Shown here: one piece after another, positions 1 through 28,287 of the stretch
Layout of the letters: each line of letters starts with the position of its first letter
Position numbering within the stretch: position 1 is the stretch's first letter
Assembly: GCA_022565555.1 (NCBI GenBank)
Contig: JAIUMN010000004.1
Location: 1-43,384, forward strand
Direction of reading: 5' to 3'
Length of the DNA: 43,384 nt
Source of the DNA: Candidatus Altimarinota bacterium
GTDB taxonomy: Bacteria; Patescibacteriota; Gracilibacteria; BD1-5; UBA6164
The notes under the pieces: generated by a model
What the model saw: the letters and a program-made list of their open reading frames with translations, nothing else
What the model was told of the DNA's origin: nothing
The model's database searches: none
Made by a program: the position numbers and the translations under genes

Positions 1-359
1 AAGAGAAGGTGGATTCTTGGCTAACTTTAAAGCTGGTCTTAGAACTCCTGCCGCTACTCTCGCATAATCGAACCCTTACATATTAGGACTTCGAGTGGCC
101 TCCTCAAGTAGGATGAGTGCAATTGCTTGCCACACCATTTTTATACCGTAAGTTTTCGCGTAGTATAAAGATTATCTAAAGTAAAACCGTGATTTTGAGT
201 TTCTAAAACTTTGTGCTCATCATCTCGTATAATACAGAGTTTTCCGGAAGTATTTTGTCTTTTTTCTTGTCACTTCTGAGTATCTCAAAAAAGACTATGA
301 TAGTAGAAGTATGCTTTGTGCCTCTCAGGACGTGAGTTCGAATCTCACTAGCTCCACCA
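1..359 (+). ncRNA. ssrA: tmRNA (SsrA), 5' end cut off by window edge
   Basis: tmRNA rescues stalled ribosomes by acting first as an alanyl-tRNA and then as a short mRNA for a degradation tag. The 3' end has a tRNA-like T arm (GTGAG 332-336, loop TTCGAAT, CTCAC 344-348), the acceptor strand TAGCTCC and an encoded CCA at 357-359. Near the start a tag reading frame is visible: resume codon GCT at 20-22 to TAA at 65-67, giving ANFKAGLRTPAATLA. The 5' acceptor strand (expected GGGGCTA) lies before the window. An intrinsic terminator follows. A plain tRNA is excluded by the length and the tag frame. The pseudoknot region between tag and T arm was not folded in detail. Confidence 0.9.
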
Positions 360-13594: not shown

Positions 13595-14908
13595 ATGCTG
13601 AGAGAACTCAAAAAACTTATTGCTCTTGATAATCCCTTAAGACTTTTGTATCACTTTCTGAGGGCTGTGATAGCAAATATTATGTACGGATTCCCAAGTA
13701 AAGATATGACAATTATAGGGGTAACGTGAACGAATGGAAAAACTACAACCTGTAATATTATAGCACAAACTTTGAGAGCTTCAGGAAAGAAGGTATTTAT
13801 GTTTACTACAGTAAATATTATGCTTGGAGAGGAGGTGTTTACTAATGAAACAAAAATGACCTCACCAGATGCTTTTGAGCTCCAGTCTTGGTTAAAAAAG
13901 GCAAAAGATGAATGATGTGAGATAGCTATTATCGAAACAGCAAGTCATGGTATAAAAATGCACCGCATATGGGGAATCGATTATGATATTTGTGTGTTGA
14001 CTAATATTACACAAGACCATCTTGATCTCCACCGTACCATGGATGATTATGTGCATACAAAGCTCAAAATATTTAAAAAACTGATGTATTATAAACGTAA
14101 GCCGTGAGTAAAAAAATCTTGAGTTATAAACGTAGAAAGTGAGTATAGTGAGTTATTTCTCGCAGAAACCTATGACTCTCTTTATACCTATGGTTTTTCT
14201 CCAGAGGCTAATGTTCGAGCAGAAAATCTAAAAAATACGAAAAAGACAATGAGTTTTGATGTTATTATACCATGACAAAAAATACATATAGAAACAAGTT
14301 TGAGGTGAAATTTTAATGTCTATAATATCCTCGCTGCAGCGGGGGTTGGTATGTCACTTGGTATTGATACTTCTACTATTTCTCAAGCTATTAAAGGGGT
14401 TTCAGGAGTACCAGGACGTATGGAAGAAATACTTTCTCCTGATGGATTTTCTATATTTATTGATTACGCCCATACTCCTGATGCACTTGAAAATGTACTC
14501 TCAACACTTTGAGAAATACGAGGAAAAGGAAGAATTATCACAGTTTTTTGAGCAACATGAGATCGTGATACTGCAAAACGTCCAGAAATGTGACAGATAG
14601 TCTCACGGCTTGCTGATGCTGTAATGCTTACGCACTATGATGACTACAGTGAAAATACTGGAAAAAATATTAAAGATATACTTCCTGGAATCGATAGAAA
14701 ACAAGGAGAGGGCTTTTGGATAATTCCTGATAGACTTGAAGCGATACGAACTGCACTTTTGATGTGAGAAAAAGATGATATCATACTTCTTGCTGGGAAG
14801 TGAGATGAGCATGTACTTATGACGAATAGGTGACCTATTGATTGGCATGAACGAACTATTGTAGAACGCATTTTAAAAGATATAGATGATAACACTCTAG
14901 TGAAGTAA
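13595..14908 (+). CDS. murE: MurE-like Mur ligase (UDP-MurNAc-tripeptide synthetase family)
   Basis: A 437-residue Mur ligase. The ATP-binding motif GVTGTNGKTTT is at residues 42-52, with UGA for G45. ITQDHLDLHRT, ETASHG, GNFNVYNILAA, VPGRME and IDYAHTPDALE are all family hallmarks. In canonical MurE (about 490 aa) the P loop lies near residue 110, so here most of the N-terminal UDP-binding domain is missing. The amino-acid recognition segment DNPR of meso-DAP enzymes is replaced by THYDDYSEN, so meso-DAP is not the expected substrate. Its stop overlaps the next ATG (TAATG). It could be a true cell-wall ligase using another amino acid, or a Mur-family enzyme with a different substrate. Confidence 0.85.
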
Positions 14909-22897: not shown

Positions 22898-24427
22898 ATG
22901 AAAAAAATATTTTTTATTTTTATTTTTTTAATCTTATTGTTTCCTTACGCTTGATATAGCCAAGTATCAGAGGAGCATAAAGAAATTTTTCAGAAATTTT
23001 CTCAAATTATTGAAAAAAGATATTCTACTTCTGATCAAGAGATAATTTATCAGAGGCTTGCTACTATGATAGATCCTCTTTTATTAAAAATCGATACAAG
23101 TGAAGTACAACGAAAAAGATTGAGTGATATACAAAGTCTTTCACGTGAAAGACTTTTTGAAATACACTTGGATGCAGATGCTAGTATCCGTACACAACTT
23201 ATAAAAGAACTAAGAATTAAAAATTCTTCTGAAAATATCTCAAACCTTAGAGCTTACTCACAACTTCAACAAGAATTTCAATATTTTATAACAGAAGATC
23301 GACAATTTGTTTGAGATTGAGATATTTGGACATGAGTCTACTTTCGTAATTTTGTATTTTTTCCAAATGAGTATGGAGTAAGCGAGAGAGATCTCGAAAG
23401 AAATAATATTTCAAAATCTTCTACTCCTCTGTATCGCGATACTTCTGGAAGATATAATTTTATTCCCGATCACGAAAAAAAGATATTTCTTACTGAGGAT
23501 GTATTTTTTTGACTTCCAGAGAAGTTTCACCTTATGCAAAATTTGTATGATGATATGAAGTATAGCTCAACTCAAGTTGAACAAACACTACGTGAAATAC
23601 AAAAAATAACACTAGATATAACGGCTTGAAAAAATCGTGAACAAAAAATAGAAGCTATCTATCATTATATATTAGAAAATCTTTCATATTCAGAAAATTT
23701 TCAACTTGATGATATGTATATTTACTCAGGACTTGAGGCTTTTAAGAGATGATCTGCGGTTTGTACATGATACGTGAAACTGATGTCATATATGCTTGCT
23801 TTTGCATGAATAGATGACTTTGAGGTGATACGATGATATGTTATAGATGCTGATGATTTTCCTCGTATTTGACATGCATGGATACGCATAGGAAATAAGT
23901 ATTATGATCCAACTTTTGATGATCCTATAGGTGTGGAAAAAACTCTTACACCTGATGAATATAGATATTATGGACTCCCTCGTGATATTATGTATACGAA
24001 TCGTTTTGATTATGGAACACTCCCAGAAGACCTAATAACTGCAAGCTTGCAGGATCGTAAAAAATATATCAGAAACTCACTTGCTGATATCTATGATATA
24101 TATAAACATATTGCATCAAGGTATCGAATCTTTGATGAAATTGTTTTTCGAGAAAAATATAATTTCTGACCGATTATCCCTTTTTCTATTTCAACTGTTA
24201 CTTCGAGACTCACATATATTGAAGTAAATGGAGAAACATTTAGATATATAGATAACGGAACACAAAGACAAATACAAAGATTCAACTTCTTTATACTCAC
24301 TGATACTAATATAGACTCTCTTCTCGAACAGATTAAGTATGACTTAACTGATTATACTCTTATGAAATGGATGCATGCAGATGGAACACATGAGTGGAGA
24401 TTCGGATTTAATATGGAGGTGAGATAA
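22898..24427 (+). CDS. Exported transglutaminase-like protein
   Basis: A 509-residue protein with a signal peptide (residues 1-21, ending around AGYSQ). The transglutaminase/papain-like core is seen at C289 (SAVCTGYVKLM), H326 (GHAWIRIG) and D337 (YYDPTFDDP), the correct order for the Cys-His-Asp triad. Upstream of it are about 260 mostly helical residues without a known domain, and downstream about 170. In this superfamily members act as cysteine proteases or amidases on cell-wall peptides or proteins, or as cross-linking enzymes. The substrate is not evident. For an epibiotic or host-attached cell an extracellular enzyme could act on the host surface, but this is inference. It precedes the structured RNA and has no clear terminator of its own. 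Confidence 0.85.
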
Positions 24428-24454
24428 ATTGTAAGAAAATTGTAAGTAAAAAAT

Positions 24455-24483
24455 TTGACAAGTTATCAAGTATTGGGTATTAT
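24455..24483 (+). promoter_or_regulatory. Near-consensus promoter of the structured RNA
   Basis: TTGACA (24455-24460), a 17-nt spacer and TATTAT (24478-24483). It is the best sigma-70-type match seen in the window. It predicts a start near 24489-24491, right at the first hairpin. Confidence 0.85.
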
Positions 24484-24570
24484 AAAAAGTACCACCTCGC
24501 AGGGAGGATGGTGCTGGCTCATTAAGTATGTCAGCTAACTCAATTCCCCAAAAGGGGAGAAAGGGTCACA

Positions 24571-24708
24571 ATGACCAAAAAAGTTGTTTCTTCGCCAAAC
24601 AATAAAGCTGCTAGAAAGCGGCAAGATCAAATGGCTTCGCGTCTTGCGAAGCAAAAAGCCAAGGGCGAAAGCCACTTGGCAAGGCAGAGGCTGAAGAAGA
24701 CTGGTTGA
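24571..24708 (+). CDS. Possible small basic protein inside the GC-rich element (alternative to ncRNA)
   Basis: ATG at 24571, preceded by purine-rich GGGGAGAAAGGG that could act as a Shine-Dalgarno, opens a frame of 45 residues, very Lys/Arg/Gln/Ala-rich (MTKKVVSSPNN, ARKRQDQMASR, SHLARQRLKKTG), to TGA at 24706. In this organism TGA is glycine, so the frame would really run through the terminator to TAA at 24844 (91 residues), which is implausible. Its codons (GCG, CGG, GGC, AAG) are unlike all neighbours. Either it is a by-chance frame in a structured RNA, or the element came from a standard-code genome. I recognise no family. Confidence 0.25.
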   Translation: MTKKVVSSPNNKAARKRQDQMASRLAKQKAKGESHLARQRLKKTG

Positions 24709-24728
24709 GCCCTGAGCAGGCCATATTC

Positions 24729-24761
24729 GGGCACCCCAACAGGGGTGCCCATCACTTTTTT
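24729..24761 (+). terminator. Strong intrinsic terminator of the structured RNA
   Basis: GGGCACCCC (24729-24737), loop AACA, GGGGTGCCC (24742-24750), then a T run at 24756-24761. A 9-bp GC-rich perfect stem is the strongest hairpin in the window. Confidence 0.92.
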
Positions 24762-24841
24762 AAAAATGAAATACTTTCACAATAATTGAGAGTATTTTTT
24801 ATATACTCAGTATATATATTTTTACTTGCAAAGACAAGGGA

Positions 24842-24870
24842 AATAATTACTATGCTTTGTAGTAATTATT
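24842..24870. promoter_or_regulatory. 11-bp perfect inverted repeat before the UvrD-nuclease gene
   Basis: AATAATTACTA (24842-24852) and TAGTAATTATT (24860-24870) flank a 7-nt loop, ending 9 nt before the ATG at 24880. It may be an operator or a 5'-leader hairpin. The space from the RNA terminator (24761) to here is AT-rich with no gene. Confidence 0.5.
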
Positions 24871-24879
24871 ACAAGATAT

Positions 24880-27800
24880 ATGAACCAAGAAAACTATCAA
24901 AAAACTCTTGCAAGCCTTAATGAGAAACAACGTCAGGCGGTAGAGACTATTTACTGACCAGTATTGGTGCTTGCAGGTCCAGGAAGTGGGAAGACACAAC
25001 TTTTATCGGCTCGTGTGGCTCATATTCTTCAGGAAACTGATTATAGTGCTGAAAACATCCTGTGTCTGACTTTCACGGACAATGCAGTAAAAAATATGCG
25101 AGAACGTCTTGCGGGCATGATTGGTCATGATGCGTATAGAGTGAGTATCATGACTTTTCATAGTTTTTGAAACGAGATTATTCAGAAGTATCGAGCGTTC
25201 TCAAGAGAGTATAGTGAGGCTGAAACGCTTGATGATATTACAGCTTATGGTATCCTTGATATTATTACCCAGAGCTTTGATTACAAACATCCATATAAAC
25301 CATGATTTAAGGCGGCTGAGACCCTCAGAGAACTCATAGGGGATATAGGAGACCTTAAGAAATCCTGATTTACCCCAGAGAAGTATAAGGCTATTATCGA
25401 AGCAAATCATAAAACACTCAAGATACTTTCTGAGCTAACAAAAACATATTGGAAACAGATAGATACTCTTGGGCAAAAAAAGGAAGAAAAACTCAAAAAG
25501 TGAGAACTTTTTATACATTACACTGAGGAGATTACGAAACTTCTTTCAGATTCTCTAACTTGACTCTATGGATATCAAAGCCTTGCACGCGTGATTCTTG
25601 ATTCACTCTCTGAGGCTATCCTAGCTTATGGTGAAACTTGAAGCTCTACTCCAATCACTGCTTGGAGAAATACTTGGACAGAACTGAGTCATAAAAAGGA
25701 ACGCCGCTTTAAGGAAGAGCTAAAGATAGAAAAACAATTCGCACTTGCAGAGGTATACGGACTGTATCAATCAGCTCTCAAAGAAAAATGATATATCGAC
25801 TTTTCTGATATGATACTCGAAGCTATCAGGCTTCTTGAAACTCATGAGGTAATACGACTCAATCTTGCTGAGAAGTATCAAATTATCATGATAGATGAGT
25901 TCCAAGACACAAACGAAGCACAGATGCGACTCATTGATATGGTGACTTCTGTAGATTCTGAACAGCCAAATATCTTTGCGGTAGGAGATGATGATCAGTC
26001 TATCTATAAGTTTCAAGGGGCAAATACGAAAAATATCAAAGACTTTAGTGAGCGCTACGATTGAACAGAACTCATTATCCTTGAGAAAAATTACAGAAGT
26101 CATACAGAAATTATCGAAACCTCTCGTAGACTTCTCTCAGAGTCGCAAGATATAAAAAATATATTTCCTGAGGCAGAAAAAAAGTTTGAAGCTCACAGGT
26201 GAAATGGGGGAGTAGTAGAAAAATATATATTTGAAACAGAGCTTGATGAGATAGTGTATATCAGGCAAGATATCGAGAAAAAAATAGCTTCCTGAGTAGC
26301 ACCTCAGGATATTGCGGTTATCACGAAGAAAAATAAATCCCTCGAAATCATTGCAAAAAATCTTCTTGACGCAGGGATTCCAGTATCAGTTTCTAAAGAA
26401 GAATCACTTTTTGAACTTGAGGAGATGAAGCTCCTCTCAGATATACTCAAGCTTCTATGAAACCTCGATCGCTCGTATATGTACGAAGATGGAGAACTCT
26501 TTATATCCATACTTTCTCATCCTGTATGGGGAATAGAGCGACTTACTTTATGGAATCTTTCAAAGACTCTCTATCACGCACGCAGCGAGAAGACTCGAAG
26601 TATTATTGAGCAACTTCGTATGCAAACTGATGTAACACTGAGAGATATTGGATATTTTTTTATTGAACTCACCCAGAGATCCCGCTATGAACGCCTTGAA
26701 GATATTATAGACTATATCACGGGTGCAAATACTCTCAGCTATGAAGATGAATACTATGATGGGAGAGATGACTGAGAAAATATTAATCAACTTCAAATCA
26801 CACTTCTCGATAGTACGCAAAAAAACTATATTTCCCCATATTTTTCCTATTATTTTTGAACACAAAATGGAAAAACGTGAGTGAAGTATGCAAGACATCT
26901 CACGCACCTCAAAAAGTTTATAGATACAGTACGGAGTTATAAAAAACAAAAAGATTTTCTCTCACTTTCTGACGCCCTTGAGATACTTGCTTTGAGAGAG
27001 AGTTATAATCTCCATCTCAAAGCTTCCACGCTTCTAGGAAATGAGTCACACTCAGTGCAGTGTATCTCGGTGCATAAGGCGAAGTGACTCGAGTGGAAAC
27101 ATGTATATGTTCCATTTATCACGACAGGTGAGTACAAGCAAGGGAAGTTTTGAGCGGTCACGTTTCCGAAAAATCTTCCACTTCAAGCAGAAAAAGACAA
27201 TATGGAAGATATAGAGCGACTTCTCTACACTGCGGCAACTCGCGCGGAGTCTCACCTAACTCTCAGCTATAGTCTCAAAAATACTTCTGAAAAAACCCTT
27301 GAACCACTTCCAAGTCTTGCTGAGATGCAAGGGGAGTTTTGTGAGCAAGAGAGAGGAGGGATGAGTGCTATCTCAACCACTCTAGAGCTTGACGCAGAGC
27401 GACTTGTGATGCTTCCATATCTTGGAGATGAACAGAGTTTCCTTAGAGAGCGTGTCGAGAAAAACTTCTCGATGAATGTCTCAGCACTCCAGAACTTTCT
27501 TGATATCACTTCTTGAGGTCCTCAAAGTTTCGTGAAACGAAATCTTCTGAGGTTTCCTCAAGCAAAAAATATAGCTGCAAGTTATGGTACTGCGGTTCAT
27601 AACGCCCTTGAGGCATTTATGCAGGACTATAGTAATAGTTGAACATTTTCTCAGAAACTCCTTCTTGAAAGTTTTGAGGAGAGTATGAGAAAAGAGTGAT
27701 TTGAAGCAAGTATTCTCGAGGATTTTCTCACAAGAGGAAATGAAAAACTTCTTGAACTCTATCCTGAGATTTCTGGGACAAAATATGAAAAACTTCAACT

Positions 27801-28287
27801 AGAGTATAACTTTTCTCTCGACGGGGGAGTGTGGCTTCCAAGGGAAAATTGAGAAGCCATCAAGCTTACTGGAAAGATAGATAAAGTCGAGCAATTTCCA
27901 GATGATAGTCTGCTTATTACAGACTATAAAACGTGAAGTGGATTTGAGGGATTTACATTTAAATGACCCGATTATCTTAAAGTGAAGCAGTGGAAGTATC
28001 ATTTGCAGCTTGCGTTTTATGATATACTGTTTGAGCTTTCAAATAAGTACAAAGTATTTTCTCGCAAGCGTTATGAATTATTTTTTGTCGAGCGAGATAA
28101 AAAAACATGAGAGTTATACAGGATAGAGGAGTATATTCAAGAGGGAGAACGAGAGCGTGCAAAGAAGCTTATCAGGGCTGTGATGACGAAGATAGAAAAT
28201 CTTGATTTTCCAGATGTTTCGCACTATCCACAAAGCTACGAGGGAATTCGCCAGTTTGAGGAAGATTTATTAGAGGGGAAAGTGTAG
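24880..28287 (+). CDS. UvrD/AddA-like helicase with C-terminal RecB-family nuclease
   Basis: A 1135-residue SF1A helicase-nuclease. Motifs: Q motif LNEKQRQAV, Walker A GPGSGKT (33-39), LTFTDNAVKNM, TFHSF, DEFQDTN (motif II), VGDDDQSIYKFQGA (III), KNYRS (IV), VHKAKGLEW (V) and LYTAATRA (VI). The C-terminal quarter has GKIDKVE (D1001) and DYKTG (D1015, K1017), the PD-(D/E)XK signature of the RecB/AddA/AddB nuclease. This single chain resembles the streamlined helicase-nucleases that replace RecBCD/AddAB in reduced genomes. Likely roles are double-strand-break end processing and degradation of incoming DNA. A second UvrD-family gene follows after 65 nt. Transcription probably starts in the AT-rich gap after the RNA terminator. 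Confidence 0.93.

Follow-up and report, generated by a model that had tools for sequence, protein, structure and literature searches.

Results

A GC-rich transcription unit between two conserved genes

The window, that is, the whole 43,384-nt stretch of Gracilibacteria DNA analysed, carries a compact transcription unit at 24455-24761 (+) between two conserved neighbours. Upstream lies a gene for a protein of 509 aa, transglutaminase-like in appearance (22898-24427, +), whose orthologues in same-genus genomes are likewise followed by a small-ORF unit. Downstream, a gene for a protein of 1135 aa is, by its motifs, a UvrD/RecB-like helicase (24880-28287, +). The unit opens with a sigma-70-type promoter, TTGACA-N17-TATTAT (24455-24483, +), which matches at 11 of 12 positions and is the best within 23000-26000. 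Because similar TTGAC(A/T)...TA(T/C)AAT elements precede the genome's own 16S rRNA, this promoter is probably active in the Gracilibacteria cell itself. The unit closes with an intrinsic terminator (24729-24761, +), the strongest of three detected, whose hairpin GGGCACCCC-AACA-GGGGTGCCC (24729-24750, 8 of 9 pairs G-C) is followed by a T-run. The high rank that the first-pass annotation gave to both elements was thus borne out.

The same annotation had singled out this stretch as GC-rich in AT-rich surroundings, and GC indeed rises to 0.48 in 200-nt windows, against ~0.33 nearby (~50% for the unit overall, with a peak of 56% in one 150-nt window). Among 232 intergenic segments, drawn from 983 kb of the 1022 kb of the window's own genome (96%), the unit is the second most GC-rich island outside rRNA and tRNA. 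Only the segment C5:20001-20375 (60%) and the rRNA exceed it, the other islands above 52% being tRNA clusters.

Local stems and an enclosing helix, noted previously from the letters, recur in the predicted minimum-energy fold (-112 kcal/mol; z = -5.44, with 0 of 200 shuffles equally good; this is the folding tool's value, our own shuffles giving a larger absolute z). The predicted stems lie at 24488-24515, 24513-24535 (an alternative), 24544-24558 and 24564-24576, together with hairpins in the ORF. The first of these is the 5'-terminal hairpin of the transcript (24488-24515, +), and such a hairpin is also predicted in two relatives of the same genus, G003 and G005. Sequence comparison suggests a leader hairpin, GCTGGC-TCATTAAGTAT-GTCAGC (24513-24535, +), the 11-nt loop of which is common to the window and G003, while the G003 stem differs (TTGAAC...GTTCAA). 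This form is predicted in G003, whereas the window leader folded alone gives a shifted pairing. The Shine-Dalgarno (SD) region GGGGAGAAAGGG (24544-24565, +) lies partly in the 3' arm of a hairpin, TTCCCC-AAAA-GGGGA, and in G003 and G005 the SD is likewise predicted in or beside a small hairpin.

The unit had been proposed to lie outside known RNA families. A search of all 4227 Rfam families agreed, with no match at gathering score for 24455-24761 and chance matches only in E-value mode; in the related loci, Rfam found tRNAs only. A hidden tmRNA or RNase P was rejected, both RNAs being located elsewhere: RNase P RNA sits on a different contig, and tmRNA is, as already annotated, in another part of the window. 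There, positions 1-359 (+) hold its 3' part (E 1e-11; missed by ARAGORN), with the 5' end off the contig and a tag frame ...ANFKAGLRTPAATLA.

The unit encodes a small basic protein

The first-pass annotation missed an SD-led ORF inside the unit (24571-24708, +), which consists of 45 codons followed by TGA (24706-24708): MTKKVVSSPNNKAARKRQDQMASRLAKQKAKGESHLARQRLKKTG. Its product (24571-24705) is a basic protein of 45 aa. A homologous protein is encoded in the sister-genus genome G008 on contig C3, elsewhere than at the syntenic locus (47% identity over 36 aa; single-comparison E 8e-9; profile E 1.3e-5), and related ORFs occupy the same locus in G002, G003 and G005. BLASTN of the transcript in 60 relatives returned only itself, so the locus was tracked through its conserved flanking genes.

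The best-sampled pair is G003/G005. Over 46 codons, their ORFs differ at 4 first, 2 second and 22 third positions, and the ORF frame has 16 synonymous and 6 non-synonymous differences (2/21 and 1/23 when read in the two alternative frames). This codon pattern shows purifying selection on the predicted protein in this pair. Because of it, and because of the G008 match to the window ORF, 24455-24761 is, as far as comparative sequence evidence goes, the mRNA of a small basic protein and not a non-coding RNA. The earlier proposal of a lineage-specific abundant RNA holds insofar as an independent, abundant-looking structured transcript is found at the same place in relatives, but its non-coding part falls to the codon-like conservation in G003/G005 and the homologue of the ORF in another genus. 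Nor was covariation strong enough for a conserved non-coding fold found; the divergence of the RNAs prevents their alignment, apart from leader hairpins that a few of them have in common. Even under a conservative reading, this is a fast-evolving small-protein family missed by annotation.

Related loci carry similar units with different ORFs

The same interval holds a similar unit in G001-G007 (same genus) and in G008, each with a promoter, a hairpin leader, an SD (weak in G001), a short ORF and a terminator. In G021 a unit lies upstream of the same helicase gene and in G030 one gene further upstream; it is absent from most other family members examined. The window ORF forms one family with those of G002, G003, G005 and contig C3 of G008. 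A two-ORF type is common to G004 and G006, whose proteins are not basic, and the ORFs of G001, G007, G008 (syntenic), G021 and G030 are each of a different type. In G006 the assembly is broken within the unit, and the starts of contigs C13 and C62 carry the ORF-start variants MAECNYWRA and MTECNDWRA, which suggests strain variation.

The unit proteins had no relative outside this lineage among viral contigs, phages, GTDB contigs, PHROGs, NCBIfam and PDB; the GTDB contig with the G008 homologue carries the label Candidatus Gracilibacteria. With no phage homologue and with conserved chromosomal genes as neighbours, the unit does not look like a phage or prophage gene.

By our own shuffles, z is < -2.9 in 12 of the 13 related units, and most remain below -2 without the terminator, whereas 6 of 7 native controls lie above -1.5 (the exception, L1, has -3.8). 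Since most units fold more strongly than controls, the mRNA may be structured or have a dual role. G005 without its terminator has no excess fold (z -0.65). Two short motifs recur close to the ORF end or beyond it, in most cases ahead of the terminator: GAGCAG in the units of the window, G003, G005, G007 and the C5 segment, and AACAGGGAG in those of G004, G007 and G008.

The host reads UGA as glycine and makes little use of SD sites

In the window's own genome, TGA accounts for 45% of glycine codons (837 genes), and a tRNA with a UCA anticodon is present. RF2 was not found, the single prfB-model match (277 bits against a cut-off of 370) being read as RF1. SmpB is present. In code 25, avoidance of TGA-glycine is a codon bias that marks highly expressed genes: EF-Tu has TGA at 0 of its 42 glycine codons (L166:5382-6581), and L1 (L111:5895-6590), L7/L12 (L123:2044-2418), an S-layer-like protein (L112:9713-13075) and HU are also free of it.

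SD-like motifs precede 26 of 837 native genes, with 13 expected by shuffling, and none of the 33 in the window. The 16S 3' end reads ...GGATGGACTATCTCCTTA in G005, G003 and the window's genome (L147, L148, L149), an altered anti-Shine-Dalgarno. Pairing with GGAG is nonetheless possible for the altered sequence (...GACTATCTCCTTA; 16S 3' end ...GGACTATCTCCTTA).

The units depart from native gene grammar

GGAG or GGGG SD sites are found in nearly all small-ORF units, G001 being weak. Codon usage is non-native, in that only 2 of 776 genes score below the window ORF; ORFs of this genus mostly fall between native and E. coli usage. In the window family, the ORFs end with TGA after 45 codons in the window, 52 in G002 and 50 in G005, and with TAA after 46 in G003 and 51 in G008 contig C3, so that TGA sits where relatives stop. 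In G004 and G006 the TGA of the first ORF overlaps the ATG of the second. A standard-code pattern, with TGA at the ORF end and none inside, fits the window and most units of this genus, while others end in TAA or TAG (G003, both of G008, G021, G030 and a gene on contig C29); in the TAA/TAG-ended unit ORFs, 29 of 29 glycine codons are GGN (P 3e-8 at the native 45% TGA). TGA avoidance loses weight as proof that the standard code is used, given the TGA-free EF-Tu, L1, L7/L12, HU and S-layer-like genes; codon usage, unlike TGA avoidance, does separate the units from such native genes.

Under the native code (TGA=Gly), the window ORF would extend from 24706 to 24761 (+), reading ...KKTGGALSRPYS, with no TAA or TAG before the transcript end. 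The same holds under code 25 for G001, G002, G004, G005, G007 and the first ORF of G006. Past the TGA, the tail frames have slightly fewer TAA/TAG than other frames, as native reading predicts; counts of this kind are a weak and partly circular gauge of nonstop selection, and we set them aside.

The units thus depart from native gene grammar in SD use, codons, absence of TGA-glycine and frequent TGA ends, in comparisons that cover a small set of units and were made once the pattern had been seen. The dialect is not uniform, since GC3 is native in the G008 and G021 units, and with TAA/TAG-ended, AT-rich units in sister genera it is best supported for this genus only.

Two further units were seen in the window's genome. 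The most GC-rich non-rRNA intergenic island (C5:20001-20375, -; L162:1-375) has the same design: an SD-led ORF of 57 codons with a TGA end (TAG 3 codons later) and a strong terminator, with an RNase R-like gene following closely. Here too only 2 of 776 genes score below it in codon usage, and, like the window ORF, it is far from EF-Tu, L1 and HU. Alignment shows no meaningful homology between the two ORFs, and the idea of a conserved companion of RNase R was dropped, as the unit is absent there in relatives. The gene on contig C29 (~13990-14384, -; L128) is a third SD-led case (101 aa, AGGAGG), with 8 GGN glycines, no TGA, a TAA stop and a GGGCC terminator; no relatives were found.

The G003/G005 unit descended with the chromosome

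Third-position divergence between G003 and G005 is 22/46 = 0.48 in the unit and 0.45 and 0.48 in flanking genes. Because these values are equal, we take the unit to have descended with the chromosome. Its GC3 is 52 and 46 (G003 and G005), against 19 and 20 in the best-matched neighbour gene, and the GC-rich codons have outlasted ~0.5 third-position changes per codon, a saturated synonymous divergence. Mutation should have erased such codons, which were probably kept by selection. RNA structure is an alternative cause of the high GC3, but the G005 body is predicted to have no excess fold.

Discussion

Our preferred reading, advanced tentatively at a probability of about 0.4, is that the unit is a small-protein gene specific to this lineage (Gracilibacteria), retained in a form that SD-using ribosomes of the standard code can read and terminate correctly. 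In the producing cell, where UGA means glycine, the ribosome would run off the transcript end and the product would be tagged by tmRNA/SmpB, so that readthrough and tmRNA together would probably blunt production at home. Expression would be full in cells that stop at UGA. These could be partner bacteria or prey into which the gene, or its mRNA with its armour of hairpins, had passed. Another candidate is a cell whose decoding has been altered by a code-11 phage; phages of this kind have been reported in Gracilibacteria (PMC10746230).

Delivery to another cell is here conjectural. The more specific scenario of a predatory or episymbiotic code-25 bacterium that keeps genes in its partner's dialect (SD, GC-rich codons, UGA stop) strikes us as quite unlikely; in it, a protein effector would be delivered as nucleic acid, expressed in the partner from armoured mRNA or DNA, and silenced at home by readthrough and tmRNA, with the code mismatch as a safety lock. 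If the preferred reading is true, a gene is kept by selection in a code foreign to its own cell, code reassignment becomes a tool for cell-specific expression, and there would be a first molecular entry point to the action of Gracilibacteria on other bacteria. Even conservatively read, the unit is an SD-led gene in a genome that otherwise has hardly any SD sites and whose anti-SD is altered, and it cautions that GC-rich hairpin islands of AT-rich genomes may be coding.

The main rival, which we think unlikely, takes the protein to be a back-up factor for ribosome rescue, similar to ArfA/BrfA and translated from a nonstop mRNA. Normally it would be tagged by tmRNA and destroyed; when trans-translation failed it would accumulate and free stalled ribosomes with RF1, a factor that ArfT shows to be usable in rescue (PMC6299226). 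The seven units without a TAA or TAG before the transcript end under code 25 are what such a gene would look like, as are the basic proteins of 45-52 aa in the window family, the presence of tmRNA and SmpB, and a KGES in the window and G008 homologues that loosely resembles the KGKGS of ArfA. However, neither Pfam (PF03889) nor PDB gave an ArfA match, although the E. coli ArfA control did (4.5e-26). Ordinary stops in G003 and the G008 homologue, where transcripts do not end before a usable stop, and the non-basic G004/G006 proteins also speak against it. TAA/TAG avoidance after the TGA is weak, and a rescue role does not account for the SD, the codon usage or the TGA at a point where the ORFs of relatives have TAA.

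It seems improbable to us as well that the site is an insertion hotspot to which phages, plasmids or partner bacteria repeatedly supply small genes of the standard code, the dialect having no special use. Recurrent acquisition would account for the mixed ORF types, that is, mutually non-homologous ORFs at the same spot in related species, and it fits a protein of the window type elsewhere in G008, the absence of the C5 unit upstream of RNase R in relatives, and the foreign-like composition. It does not account for the G003/G005 orthologues, which are as diverged as their neighbours, making at least this one old and vertical, yet unadapted to native composition, and no donor or homologue was found outside the lineage. 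Finally, the reading of the first-pass annotation, a lineage-specific structured RNA, possibly dual-function, with the GC-rich hairpins and not the peptide as main product, is very unlikely: the strong folds of the window and its relatives, the shared-loop leader hairpins of the window and G003 and the recurring GAGCAG are set against codon-type conservation, the missing excess fold of G005 once its terminator is left out and the lack of an alignable conserved fold.

Among known systems, brfA (PMC6881298) and arfA (described in PMC6299226) provide nonstop precedents with an internal terminator, and they share with the unit a short basic protein, a terminator before any native stop and tmRNA/SmpB in the genome. 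The unit differs from them in its SD, foreign codons and TGA end, in lacking an ArfA sequence match, and in that some orthologues stop normally. With the code-11-compatible Gracilibacteria phages (PMC10746230), the unit shares the absence of in-frame TGA within a code-25 setting. Their genes have back-up stops close behind the TGA, which the window ORF does not, and the unit is a single chromosomal gene flanked by conserved genes of the chromosome, with neither phage surroundings nor a phage homologue. Lineage-specific structured bacterial RNAs resemble it in their strong promoter, hairpin array, terminator and high GC in an AT-rich genome; unlike them, the unit encodes a protein under purifying selection.
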